Below, in pieces: positions 21,833-29,927 of a DNA stretch of 57,225 nt. Source of the stretch: an uncultured Opitutia bacterium (GTDB taxonomy: Bacteria; Verrucomicrobiota; Verrucomicrobiia; Opitutales; Opitutaceae); contig CAIUOU010000157.1 of assembly GCA_903900845.1 (NCBI GenBank), positions 1 through 57,225 on the forward strand, in the 5' to 3' direction. How positions within the stretch are numbered: the first letter of the stretch is position 1; each line of letters opens with the position of its first letter. The notes beneath the pieces were generated by a model. The model searched no databases. It saw only the letters and a program-made list of their open reading frames with translations, and was not told the origin of the DNA. The position numbers and the translations under genes were made by a program.

Positions 21833-23071
21833 ATGAAGCCCGCGCGCATCGTCATCACCGGGATCGGTCTCACGGCCCCCAACGGCAACACGCTCGCGGA
21901 CTTTCGGCACAGCCTGCTCAACGGCGTTTCCGGTGTCAGCCGCATCGAGGTGCGCCACATGGGGCAGCAACTCGCCGGCGTGTGCACCTACGATCCGTTG
22001 AAGTACCAGAAGCGGAAGGAGCTCCGCGTGGGCACCCGTGCAGGTAGTATTTCCATCTATTGTGCTCGGGAGGCGCTGGCCGACAGCGGCGTGGCTTTCG
22101 ATGCCCTCCCGAAGGACCGAGTCGGGATTTATCTCGGCTGCACCGAACACGGGAACGTCGAGACCGAGAACGAGATCCACAACATCTCGAAATTCGCCTA
22201 CGACACAAAGTTCTGGTCGCACTACCACAACCCTCGCACGGTCGCCAACAACCCGGCCGGCGAGACCTCCCTTAACCTCGGCGTGACCGGCCCCGCGTAC
22301 ACGCTCGGCGCCGCCTGCGCGGCCGGCAACCTGGGCCTGATCCACGCCACGCAGATGCTGCGCCTCCGGGAGTGCGACTTCGCGATCTGCGGCGGCGTGA
22401 GCGAGAGCAGCCACACCTTCGGCATCTTCGCGGGCTTCAAGTCCCAGAACGCGCTCGCGACCCACGAGGATGCCGCCAAGGCCTCCCGTCCCTTTGACAA
22501 GGCGCGCAATGGCATCGTGATCTCGGAGGGCGGCTGCCTCTACACCCTCGAGCGGCTGGAGGATGCGCAGGCTAGGGGGGCGAAGATCTACGCCGAGATC
22601 GCGGGGTACCACGTGAACAGCGACGCCAGCGACTACGTGCTGCCCAATCCGACCCGGCAGGCCGAGTGCGTGCGGGCCGCGCTCGGGCGCTCCGGGCTGG
22701 CCGCCCGCGATATCCACATCGTCAACACCCACGCCACTGCCACCCCTCTCGGCGATATCCAGGAGTGCGAGGCTATCCGGGCCGTGTTCGGGGTCGATTG
22801 CCCCGAAACCCACATCAACAACACCAAGAGTTTCATCGGCCACGCCATGGGCGCCGCCGGCGCGCTCGAGCTCGCCGGAAACCTGCCTTCTTTCAACGAC
22901 GGGATCGTCCATCCCAGCATCAACGTCGACGATCTCGACCCCCAGTGCGCGTTACCCGGGCTTGTCCTCAACACGCCGCGGGCGGCCGCGCGGATCGATA
23001 CGATCCTCAACAACTCCTTCGGCATGCTGGGGATAAATTCCACGTTGATTGTTCGACGCTTTGTCGCCTAG
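21833..23071 (+). CDS. Beta-ketoacyl-ACP synthase of an unusual acyl-chain cluster
   Basis: A FabF-family condensing enzyme of 412 residues that extends acyl-ACP with malonyl-ACP. The nucleophile is Cys162 in YTLGAACAAGNLGL. The two His residues lie in NTHATATPLGDIQE and NNTKSFIGHAMGAAGA, giving the complete Cys-His-His triad. It is diverged from housekeeping FabF: ordinary enzymes have TACASG and NAHGTSTPLGD. It starts a run of acyl-chain genes, with the acyl carrier protein 15 bases downstream. This suggests a dedicated second pathway rather than general lipid synthesis. Confidence 0.93.
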   Translation: MKPARIVITGIGLTAPNGNTLADFRHSLLNGVSGVSRIEVRHMGQQLAGVCTYDPLKYQKRKELRVGTRAGSISIYCAREALADSGVAFDALPKDRVGIYLGCTEHGNVETENEIHNISKFAYDTKFWSHYHNPRTVANNPAGETSLNLGVTGPAYTLGAACAAGNLGLIHATQMLRLRECDFAICGGVSESSHTFGIFAGFKSQNALATHEDAAKASRPFDKARNGIVISEGGCLYTLERLEDAQARGAKIYAEIAGYHVNSDASDYVLPNPTRQAECVRAALGRSGLAARDIHIVNTHATATPLGDIQECEAIRAVFGVDCPETHINNTKSFIGHAMGAAGALELAGNLPSFNDGIVHPSINVDDLDPQCALPGLVLNTPRAAARIDTILNNSFGMLGINSTLIVRRFVA

Positions 23072-23086
23072 TTCCCGCCGTTTCCC

Positions 23087-23350
23087 ATGACCAAAGACGA
23101 ATGCAGGCAGGTGGTGCTCGATATCATCGCGGACATCGCTCCCGACGAGGACCTGAGCAACGTGAAGCCCGAGGTGCGGCTCCGCGACCAACTGCAGCTC
23201 GATAGCATGGACTTCCTCGACATCGTGATGGAGCTCCGGAAGCGCCACGGCATCGAAGTGCCCGAGGCCGACTACATGCAGCTCGCCTCGCTCGACAGCT
23301 GCGCGGAGTACCTCACGCCCAAGTTCAACGCGCTGGCCGGCAAGAGCTGA
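23087..23350 (+). CDS. Acyl carrier protein (cluster-specific)
   Basis: An 87-residue carrier whose phosphopantetheine attachment site is Ser40 in LQLDSMDFLDIVM. It has the usual four-helix pattern and an acidic helix II, though DSMDF rather than the housekeeping DSLD(T/S)VE. It follows the ketosynthase by 15 bases. It is probably the carrier on which the cluster's chain is built. A spacer with inverted repeats follows before the next gene. Confidence 0.93.
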   Translation: MTKDECRQVVLDIIADIAPDEDLSNVKPEVRLRDQLQLDSMDFLDIVMELRKRHGIEVPEADYMQLASLDSCAEYLTPKFNALAGKS

Positions 23351-28018: not shown

Positions 28019-29040
28019 GGTTCGAGCACGCCTGCATCGAATCGCTGGCCGTCGCGATGCCGGATGAAGTCTGGACCTCCGCGGAGATCGAGGCGCGGCT
28101 GGCTCCGGTTTACGAGCGGCTGAAGCTCCCGGCGGGGCGGCTGGAATTGATGACCGGCATCCGGGAGCGCCGGATGTGGCCGGCGGGGACGCGGCCCTCC
28201 GATGCCAGCGCCGCGGCGGGACGCGCGGTACTCGCGAAGTCGGGGCTTAAGGCGGAAGACGTGGAATTGTTCATCCATGCCGCCGTGAGCCGTGACATGC
28301 TGGAGCCGGCGACCGCTTCGTTCGCGCACCGGAAGATCGGACTCCCGCCGCGGGCGCAGGTGATGGACGTGTCAAACGCGTGCCTCGGTTTCCTGAACTC
28401 GCTCGTGCTCGCGGCCTCGATGATCGAGGCGGGGCAAATCCGCTGCGCGCTGGTGGCGGCGGGGGAGAACGGACGGCCGCTGGTCGAGCAGACCCTGCGC
28501 ACGCTCAACCAGCAGCCGCTGTCGCGGAACGACATCAAGCCCTACTTCGCAAACCTCACAATCGGCTCCGGGGCGGTGGCGGCGGTCGTCTGCCACCGAT
28601 CGCTCGCCGGAGGGCGCGGTCATCGCATCCTCGGCGGCACCGGGCGAGCCGCGACCGCGCACAGCGAACTATGCCTAGGCGACACCCATGGCGCGGAGGC
28701 GCTCGCGATGCAGACCGACTCGGAAAGGCTGTTGGTCGCCGGCGTGGAACTCGCGCGGGAGACTTGGGCGGAGTTTTCGCGCGATCACGGAACGGAGTTT
28801 GACCGTTTCATCTGCCACCAGGTCGGATCGGTGCACCGCCGCAAGCTCTATGAGACCCTGGGTCTGGACCTCGCCCGCGACTTCTCGACCTTCGAAACGC
28901 TCGGCAACACCGGCTCGGTGGCGCTGCCGGCGACGCTGGCGCTCGCGGCCGAGGCCGGAGCGGTGAAAACCGGACAGCGGGTGGGGCTCCTGGGAATTGG
29001 CAGCGGCCTGAATTGCCTGATGCTCGCGCTGGAATGGTGA
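28015..29040 (+). CDS. oleA: OleA-type beta-ketoacyl synthase III (acyl-CoA condensing)
   Basis: A thiolase-fold enzyme of 341 residues. OleA proteins join two fatty acyl chains head to head to give a beta-keto acid. The sequence tracks OleA of Xanthomonas: [11 protein letters not shown] (Glu97), NACLGF (Cys123 nucleophile), [10 protein letters not shown] (His268), [12 protein letters not shown] (Asn298) and the diagnostic C-terminus [17 protein letters not shown]. All four catalytic positions are present. It overlaps the FabI-like gene by 4 bases and OleB by 7. OleC and OleD, needed for olefin formation, are not in the window. Confidence 0.9.
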
Positions 29041-29927
29041 CCGCGACGCCAAGCCCCGGCTGGTTGCGGGCGGAGTATCCGTTTACGCCGCACCGGCATC
29101 TCCTCGCCGACGGCACCGCGCTCAGTTTTCTCGACGAAGGGCCGCGCACGCGTAGGGCGGTCGTGATGGTTCACGGGAATCCAACGTGGTCCTATTACTA
29201 CCGTCACCTCGTGCGTGCCCTGGCGCCGACGCGTCGGTGCGTTGTTCCGGACCACGTGGGCATGGGGTTTTCGGACAAACCGACGGACCGCGCCTACACG
29301 CTCGCACAGCGTATCGCCGATCTTGAGGACCTGGTGACTTCGCTCGGACTGGAGCAGGTCGATATCGTCGTGCACGATTGGGGTGGTGCGATCGGCCTCG
29401 GTTTCGCGGGAAGGCACCCGGAAAATGTGCGGCGCCTGGTGATCCTCAACACGGCGGCGTTTCCGGATGATCGCATTCCCGCGCGGATCGCACTGTGCCG
29501 GGCGCCGCTGATCGGACCGCTGATCGTTCGCGGGTGCAACGGATTCGCCTGGCCCGCCACGCGGATGGCGATGGCGCGCCGCGTGCTCAGCGCCGAGGAG
29601 AAGCGCGGTTATCTGTTCCCGTACGGCTCGTGGGCCGATCGCGTGGCGGTCAACGCCTTCGTGCGCGACATCCCAATGGAACCCACTCACCCGACGCATG
29701 CGACGCTTGCGGCGGTGGAGACCGGGCTGGCACACCTGCGAGGCAAGGAGGCGTTGATCGTCTGGGGTGGGCGCGACTTCTGTTTCAACGACCACTTCCT
29801 CGAGCGCTGGCGGGAGTTCATGCCGGACGCTGCGGTTCACCGCATCGCCGACGCGGGCCATTACGTGCTGGATGACGCTCGCGAGGAGGTCTTACCGCTA
29901 GTCAGCGGGTTTCTGACGCAAGACTGA
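29034..29927 (+). CDS. oleB: OleB-like alpha/beta hydrolase (beta-lactone decarboxylase family)
   Basis: A haloalkane-dehalogenase-like hydrolase of 297 residues. VMVHGNPTWSYYYRHL is the oxyanion region, HDWGGAIGLGFAGRHP carries the Asp115 nucleophile, WGGRDFCF carries Asp248, and ADAGHYVLDDA carries His276. OleB turns a beta-lactone into a cis-olefin and carbon dioxide in long-chain hydrocarbon synthesis. The ATG at 29034 overlaps the oleA stop region. A different hydrolase role cannot be ruled out because OleC/OleD are missing nearby. The 3' end overlaps malQ by 26 bases on the opposite strand. Confidence 0.82.
   Translation: MVTATPSPGWLRAEYPFTPHRHLLADGTALSFLDEGPRTRRAVVMVHGNPTWSYYYRHLVRALAPTRRCVVPDHVGMGFSDKPTDRAYTLAQRIADLEDLVTSLGLEQVDIVVHDWGGAIGLGFAGRHPENVRRLVILNTAAFPDDRIPARIALCRAPLIGPLIVRGCNGFAWPATRMAMARRVLSAEEKRGYLFPYGSWADRVAVNAFVRDIPMEPTHPTHATLAAVETGLAHLRGKEALIVWGGRDFCFNDHFLERWREFMPDAAVHRIADAGHYVLDDAREEVLPLVSGFLTQD

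Follow-up and report, generated by a model that had tools for sequence, protein, structure and literature searches.

Polyene hydrocarbons of the C31:9 type have been reported from Planctomycetes and from Desulfotalea, the latter described as having no known route to polyunsaturated fatty acids (PUFAs), and how a polyunsaturated chain arises without Pfa was left open by Rattray et al. 2009 (PMC2649909). Pfa synthases are described as either reducing the trans-2 double bond or isomerizing it to cis-2 or cis-3, and C31:9 is predicted to be formed from two 16:4 n-3 chains via OleA-D (PMC4882568). A pfaBC fusion, present in several Deltaproteobacteria and in Gemmata obscuriglobus, was suggested by Shulse and Allen to feed olefin synthesis (PMC3098273). 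With regard to flavoproteins, FabX provides a precedent for setting a cis-3 bond on a chain bound to acyl carrier protein (ACP) (PMC8626469), and two CrtI-like homologues from anammox bacteria showed no phytoene desaturase activity (PMC4790861). Here we analyzed a cluster of eight genes in a 57,225-base stretch of DNA (hereafter the window; bases 1-57225 of contig C157) from the draft genome (4.4 Mb, 205 contigs) of an uncultured Opitutia bacterium. No description of this gene set was found among listed openly licensed papers, of which titles and the opening lines of abstracts were considered.

All eight genes are on the plus strand in the order ketosynthase (KS), ACP, CrtI1, CrtI2, FabZ, FabI, OleA and OleB. 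This is the arrangement given in an original prediction made from the sequence, including the overlaps of the last five genes, and it was confirmed from coordinates and family matches. We interpret the cluster, with a probability of roughly 0.6, as a type II synthase of polyunsaturated acyl chains, built from discrete enzymes and coupled to a head-to-head hydrocarbon pathway; the module seems to be a set of separate enzymes taking the place of the PUFA synthase feeding OleA.

Co-occurrence with OleA and alternation with PfaBC

The distribution of CrtI1 and OleA was determined in 288 Verrucomicrobiota genomes drawn evenly (E-value 1e-40) and in 392 Planctomycetota genomes (E-value 1e-20), giving co-occurrence counts that are not phylogenetically independent. 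CrtI1 was found in 78 and OleA in 77 of the Verrucomicrobiota genomes, with both in 73, CrtI1 only in 5, OleA only in 4 (G100, G175, G253 and G266) and neither in 206. The corresponding values for Planctomycetota were 97 for CrtI1, 147 for OleA and 96 for both, G683 being the sole genome with CrtI1 and no OleA. CrtI1 rarely occurs without OleA, whereas OleA can occur without CrtI1. Among the 96 Planctomycetota genomes with both, the two genes were on the same contig in 54 and at most 10 kb apart in 37.

OleA loci were then fetched from 20 of the 51 Planctomycetota genomes without CrtI1, and in 13 of these loci oleA had beside it a frame 1703-3157 residues long, in some cases truncated at the end of the fetched stretch. 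The four giant proteins scanned all contained two FabA domains and at least a partial KS, three of them with an acyltransferase match, and all four matched the PfaB model below its cut-off. Judged by these domains, the giant protein beside oleA in Planctomycetota without CrtI1 is a PUFA synthase of the PfaBC type; two further large frames close to oleA, in loci L324 and L328, were found on scanning to be unrelated proteins. A search with the FabA part identified PfaBC in 50 of the 392 Planctomycetota genomes, 3 of these without OleA. The 147 genomes with OleA comprised 96 with CrtI1, 47 with PfaBC, 4 with neither (G348, G423, G596 and G632) and none with both. PfaBC was located at most 10 kb from oleA in 39 of the 47, and the weakest PfaBC matches (40-42% identity; G350, G397, G410 and G426) were off oleA's contig or in a genome without OleA. 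Of the Verrucomicrobiota genomes with OleA only, G100 carries a PfaC-like gene adjacent to oleA; no PfaC-like gene was present in the oleA stretches fetched from G175, G253 and G266, the contigs of the last two being about 8 kb. PfaA was over its cut-off in none of 57 close genomes (a set that includes the window's own), and the best match in the window's genome was a 139-bit KS, the PfaC part not having been searched there. In the OleA tree, 19 of the 20 proteins from genomes without CrtI1 formed one clade (support 100/100), with the CrtI1 genomes of both phyla outside it; the twentieth, from locus L320, had a very long branch and came from a genome with neither module.

The original prediction was of an unusual chain, possibly polyunsaturated or cyclised. 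The first of these is favored over the second here because the module and PUFA-synthase genes alternate in OleA genomes of Planctomycetota. The ladderane link is one of distant similarity. Some other special chain for OleA (conjugated polyene, aryl polyene, branched or very long) in place of a methylene-interrupted PUFA appears rather improbable. Two flavoproteins could build conjugated systems, but the exclusion of PfaBC in OleA genomes points to a PUFA-like chain, the FabI of the cluster argues against full conjugation, and C31:9 is reported from Planctomycetes (PMC2649909, citing others).

Conservation in Verrucomicrobiota and Planctomycetota

A CrtI1 match at an E-value of 3e-50 or better was found in 52 of the 57 close genomes, counting a fragment in G010 and a protein of 32% identity in G055; among the others, the match was weak in G015 and absent from G040, G042, G043 and G051. 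KS and ACP adjoined CrtI1 in 28 of the 29 loci returned from close genomes and accompanied it in 16 of 18 wider stretches. The second block, CrtI2-FabZ-FabI-OleA-OleB, was complete in 9 of 20 loci picked by a CrtI2-like match, the contig edge being reached inside the block in L347 and L354. In all 20, CrtI2 was a clear orthologue (56-85% identity); the confirmation of CrtI2 holds for fetched loci. Both blocks are joined in the window, and the distance between CrtI1 and OleA was at most 15 kb in 17 of 25 genomes of family f1.

In Planctomycetota, 20 loci were selected in which a single contig carries CrtI1 as well as OleA, so that OleA is present in all. KS-ACP-CrtI1 occurred in order in each of them, together with CrtI2 in 19 and also with FabZ-FabI in 16, and OleB, OleC and OleD were found in 13, 13 and 5 loci, respectively. 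The Planctomycetota CrtI2 orthologues shared 52-62% identity with CrtI2 of the window. When loci were fetched regardless of OleA (n=3), KS-ACP-CrtI1 was found in two. Additional genes occur within some clusters, namely a FabG-like reductase between CrtI2 and FabZ in L284, L290 and L291, and a phosphopantetheinyl transferase between FabI and OleB in L290; with FabG, the cluster would supply every activity of the fatty-acid cycle plus two flavoproteins. The original prediction expected the gene order to be conserved in relatives, and this holds in many, including Planctomycetota, with the genes dispersed in others. Judging from this recurrence of the order in relatives and in a second phylum, the eight-gene arrangement is more than chance.

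A protein of about 240 residues is encoded upstream of KS in seven Planctomycetota loci (L273, L274, L277, L278, L280, L281 and L291). Of four scanned, that of L274 was over the MarR_2 cut-off, those of L277 and L278 were below it and that of L273 gave no match. This MarR-like protein may regulate the Planctomycetota clusters.

A ketosynthase clade distinct from housekeeping FabF

The cluster KS keeps the Cys, both His and the Lys residues. The GFGG loop of FabF, in which Phe400 is described as gating the enzyme (PMC7138838), was replaced in all 48 cluster KSs, by GMLG in 47 and by GMVG in one; it was retained in the two FabF proteins of the window's genome and in one KS from locus L199. In a quick tree rooted on PfaBC KS, all 47 cluster KSs included formed one clade, with a support of 99 in the Shimodaira-Hasegawa-like approximate likelihood ratio test (SH-aLRT), apart from the two FabF proteins of the same genome. 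The ACP motif DSMDFLDIV was invariant in 46 of 46 orthologues. The KS is therefore distinct from housekeeping FabF, as the original prediction required, on account of both its clade and its changed gating loop. An identity as FabF of housekeeping type II fatty-acid synthesis was rejected since the KS did not group with the FabF proteins of its genome and has lost the GFGG loop. More generally, it is scarcely credible that these are ordinary fatty-acid genes placed beside ole genes by happenstance: KS and FabI do fall within the FabF and FabI superfamilies, but against this stand the separate clade, the loop changed throughout the cluster KSs and the fact that CrtI1 tracks OleA in two phyla.

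The CrtI-type flavoproteins

On curated carotenoid models, the best scores were 58 bits for CrtI1 (cut-off 580) and 118 bits for CrtI2 (cut-off 587), and the best NCBIfam model for CrtI2 was a carotenoid isomerase, again below cut-off. Both proteins being far under the curated cut-offs, an identity as carotenoid CrtI desaturase or isomerase was rejected. In a phylogenetic tree, CrtI1, CrtI2 and anammox CrtI formed three separate clades with very long branches between them. In family f20 (genomes G055, G211 and G276; loci L072 and L309), a sudden change was seen in one enzyme of the set, CrtI1.

CrtI-type enzymes are dehydrogenases in carotenoid synthesis, and it is conceivable that the CrtI proteins introduce double bonds by dehydrogenation only after KS, ACP, FabZ and FabI have completed a saturated or monounsaturated chain. 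Such a role was proposed by Rattray et al. 2009 for anammox bacteria and for the CrtI-like genes of Desulfotalea psychrophila, in which carbon isotopes tie C31:8 and C31:9 to monounsaturated fatty acids (PMC2649909). We consider this order of events unlikely in the present cluster, as it does not account for the presence, in a conserved order, of a KS, an ACP, a dehydratase and a reductase belonging to the module itself, nor for the alternation with PfaBC, a type described as setting double bonds during elongation; the best model for CrtI2, although below cut-off, is moreover an isomerase.

In anammox loci, fetched with an anammox FabZ as query, the cluster was FabZ-KS-KS-CrtI, with CrtI seen in 38 of the 46 loci having a FabZ at least 61% identical to the query. 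CrtI1 was the best match nowhere in these fetched loci. The mixing of FabZ, FabF-like KS and CrtI-like genes in both systems is what a ladderane-like or otherwise cyclised chain, as in anammox bacteria, has in its favor, yet such a product is very improbable given the comparisons made. Specifically, anammox CrtI shared 23-28% identity with CrtI2 as against 52-62% for the Planctomycetota orthologues, the CrtI clades are split by very long branches and anammox KSs fall outside the cluster KS clade. The CrtI1 match was never above 47.5 bits in six anammox genomes, G336, the anammox member of the Planctomycetota sample, was without OleA at 1e-20, and Pfam scans of the eight window genes and of a number of additional cluster proteins showed no radical S-adenosylmethionine (radical-SAM) domain. 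Membership of the ladderane family was rejected on the absence of CrtI1 from the six anammox genomes and the placement of KS and CrtI in other clades. The relation of the cluster to the ladderane system may be a distant similarity of parts at most.

Probable completion of the ole pathway in the genome

The window's OleA scored 437 bits on NF006720 (cut-off 285) and aligned over its full length with 3fk5 (annotated as 3-oxoacyl synthase III), with Cys and Glu-Pro kept; 3fk5-type entries are presumably Xanthomonas OleA. The Cys, the Glu-Pro and the His of HQV were present in the window and kept in 31 of 31 relatives. Glu followed by Pro has been described in all but two of the OleA proteins studied, and as essential in the Xanthomonas enzyme (PMC7064751). 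The cluster OleA is the single close OleA in its own genome. For OleB, the best NCBIfam models were haloalkane dehalogenases, matched below cut-off, with no OleB model among the matches listed; its gene overlaps that of OleA, and the pairing is conserved in relatives. OleC was found at L058:4945-6792 with 625 bits on NF006754 (cut-off 478), its scores on two narrower olefin beta-lactone synthetase models being 496 and 437 bits (under cut-offs of 900 and 850). The best models for an OleD-like gene were two OleD models (363 and 336 bits, under cut-offs of 580). OleC and the OleD-like gene are adjacent on contig C98, a contig other than that of the cluster. By these matches, the genome seems to hold OleA, B, C and D in two places. 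The original prediction had two chains joined into a ketone or hydrocarbon; given OleC and the OleD-like gene in the genome, a hydrocarbon would be likelier than a bare ketone.

Proposed pathway

From gene content, deep conservation, co-occurrence with OleA and, in Planctomycetota, exclusion of PfaBC, all established by comparison, we infer what chain is made, that each CrtI protein acts as an isomerase and what the final product is, as follows. The dedicated KS and ACP would elongate the chain with FabZ, FabI and a FabG, the last being presumably the cell's own in the window's organism but encoded within the cluster in some Planctomycetota. In certain cycles, the new trans-2 bond would be shifted or flipped by the two CrtI flavoproteins, giving cis-3 or cis-2, and would thereby escape reduction by FabI. 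Methylene-interrupted cis double bonds would thus remain, and the chain would most likely be 16:4 n-3. OleA would condense two such chains and OleD, OleC and OleB would convert the product to a C31:9-like polyene hydrocarbon.

Elongation programs were enumerated for seven cycles, each assumed to leave the new bond saturated, cis-2 or cis-3. A single program then gives 16:4 n-3: the bond is reduced at C4, C10 and C16 (three cycles), becomes cis-3 at C6 and C12 (two cycles) and becomes cis-2 at C8 and C14 (two cycles). This program needs a KS, an ACP, a ketoreductase, a dehydratase, an enoyl reductase and two different isomerase activities; we infer that the two CrtI-like flavoproteins supply the two enoyl isomerizations.

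Several observations weigh against a type II polyunsaturated acyl synthase feeding OleA. CrtI1 was without OleA in five Verrucomicrobiota genomes (G158, G198, G233, G317 and G332), of which G158 is 99% complete. KS and ACP were missing beside CrtI1 in 6 of 17 Verrucomicrobiota loci, in 2 of the 18 wider stretches and in one of the three Planctomycetota loci fetched regardless of OleA, and CrtI2 lacked FabZ, FabI and OleA in 9 of 20 second-block loci (L348 being at a contig edge). Within family f20, identity is just 31-34% for CrtI1, against 73% for KS (two loci) and 53-56% for OleA. The exclusion of PfaBC was counted in Planctomycetota alone and, on the evidence of the OleA tree, is a matter of few independent events, largely one split. 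In G013, a genome from the window's genus, CrtI1 is accompanied by a PfaA-like gene (locus L363, contig C297; 861 bits, partial), which gives the only TIGR02813 match above 362 bits in the 57 close genomes. No gene moving the chain from ACP to OleA was seen, and the substrates of studied OleA proteins are described as acyl-CoA (PMC7064751). According to a review, every C31:9 producer it knew of also makes eicosapentaenoic or docosahexaenoic acid (PMC4882568), a statement contradicted by Desulfotalea as described by Rattray et al. Finally, the CrtI proteins could instead desaturate a finished chain.

Gene layout and neighboring genes

The coordinates of the eight genes are given in Table 1. The overlaps among the last five genes, from CrtI2 to OleB, are 4, 4, 4 and 7 bases, the final one becoming 4 bases if OleB starts at the GTG at 29037. 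The longest open reading frame of CrtI2 begins at 25081, with an ATG at 25282; the start is most likely at 25282 and not 25081, because homology begins just past the former. In comparison with the tight spacing of the last five genes, 250 bases without a cluster gene separate ACP from CrtI1 (window 23351-23600). About 5 kb downstream of the cluster, the minus strand encodes a FabD-like malonyl transacylase (window 34648-35559; Acyl_transf_1, 112 bits), and in other genomes of the genus (G001, G004, G008, G015, G017 and G020) matches resembling FabD were likewise found about 5 kb past the second block. Three genes in a row on the minus strand at window 7437-11846 appear sulfatase-like, judging from their translations alone.

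Table 1. Position and supporting features of the eight cluster genes in the window (FAD, flavin adenine dinucleotide).
Gene product	Position	Strand	Supporting features
KS, dedicated, FabF-like	21833..23071	+	ketoacyl-synt match; Cys-His-Lys-His intact; GFGG loop changed to GMLG
ACP	23087..23350	+	PP-binding match; motif DSMDFLDIV
CrtI1, FAD-dependent amine-oxidase/CrtI-type protein, proposed enoyl-ACP isomerase	23601..25049	+	Amino_oxidase match
CrtI2, CrtI-type flavoprotein, proposed second enoyl-ACP isomerase	25282..26739	+	Amino_oxidase match
FabZ-type 3-hydroxyacyl-ACP dehydratase	26736..27194	+	FabA-like domain; matches to solved FabZ proteins; catalytic His and Glu present
FabI-type enoyl-ACP reductase	27191..28018	+	adh_short_C2 match; Tyr-x6-Lys present
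OleA, condensing two acyl chains	28015..29040	+	NF006720 match; catalytic Cys and Glu-Pro present
Putative OleB, alpha/beta hydrolase of haloalkane-dehalogenase type	29034..29927	+	family matches; kept beside OleA

Significance and comparison with known systems

As a whole, the interpretation given in the original prediction is supported by these sequence comparisons. We propose tentatively, at slightly less than even odds, that the two CrtI flavoproteins convert trans-2-enoyl-ACP to the cis-3 and to the cis-2 form, as the isomerases of a type II PUFA system that occurs widely among Planctomycetota and Verrucomicrobiota and is devoted to C31:9-like hydrocarbons. It is an equally tentative suggestion that this system constitutes a further bacterial route to methylene-interrupted polyunsaturated chains, beside oxygen-dependent desaturases and giant Pfa synthases. 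The cluster would probably explain polyene hydrocarbon synthesis in bacteria without a giant synthase. It would provide a near-complete, portable gene list for which oxygen is in principle not needed and offer a possible function for acyl-ACP CrtI-like proteins, and engineering should be simpler with a small PUFA system of discrete enzymes than with a giant synthase.

In relation to described systems, the genome shares with the oleABCD pathway an OleA with Cys and Glu-Pro, a probable OleB and, elsewhere, OleC and an OleD-like gene, but here oleA and oleB are placed within a dedicated chain-building cluster, with oleC and the oleD-like gene on another contig. Pfa-type PUFA synthases (pfaABCDE; PfaBC in Planctomycetota) are likewise found with ole genes and, judging by the exclusion, would have the same role; they are giant multidomain proteins with two FabA domains, in contrast to the discrete KS, ACP, FabZ, FabI and two CrtI-type flavoproteins of the present cluster. 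The Desulfotalea psychrophila clusters also combine CrtI-like and type II fatty-acid synthesis genes in a producer of C31:8 and C31:9 described as without Pfa (PMC2649909), but differ, by their published description, in having radical-SAM genes in common with anammox bacteria. The anammox ladderane candidate cluster has FabZ, FabF-like KS and CrtI-like genes as well, but its CrtI and KS belong to other clades, and CrtI1 (six genomes) and OleA (one genome) were not found there. Helicobacter FabX resembles the proposed CrtI activity as a flavoprotein setting a cis-3 double bond on acyl-ACP, but is a flavin mononucleotide enzyme with an iron-sulfur cluster, described as oxygen-requiring (PMC8626469), and the comparison, for which no homology is claimed, is one of function.

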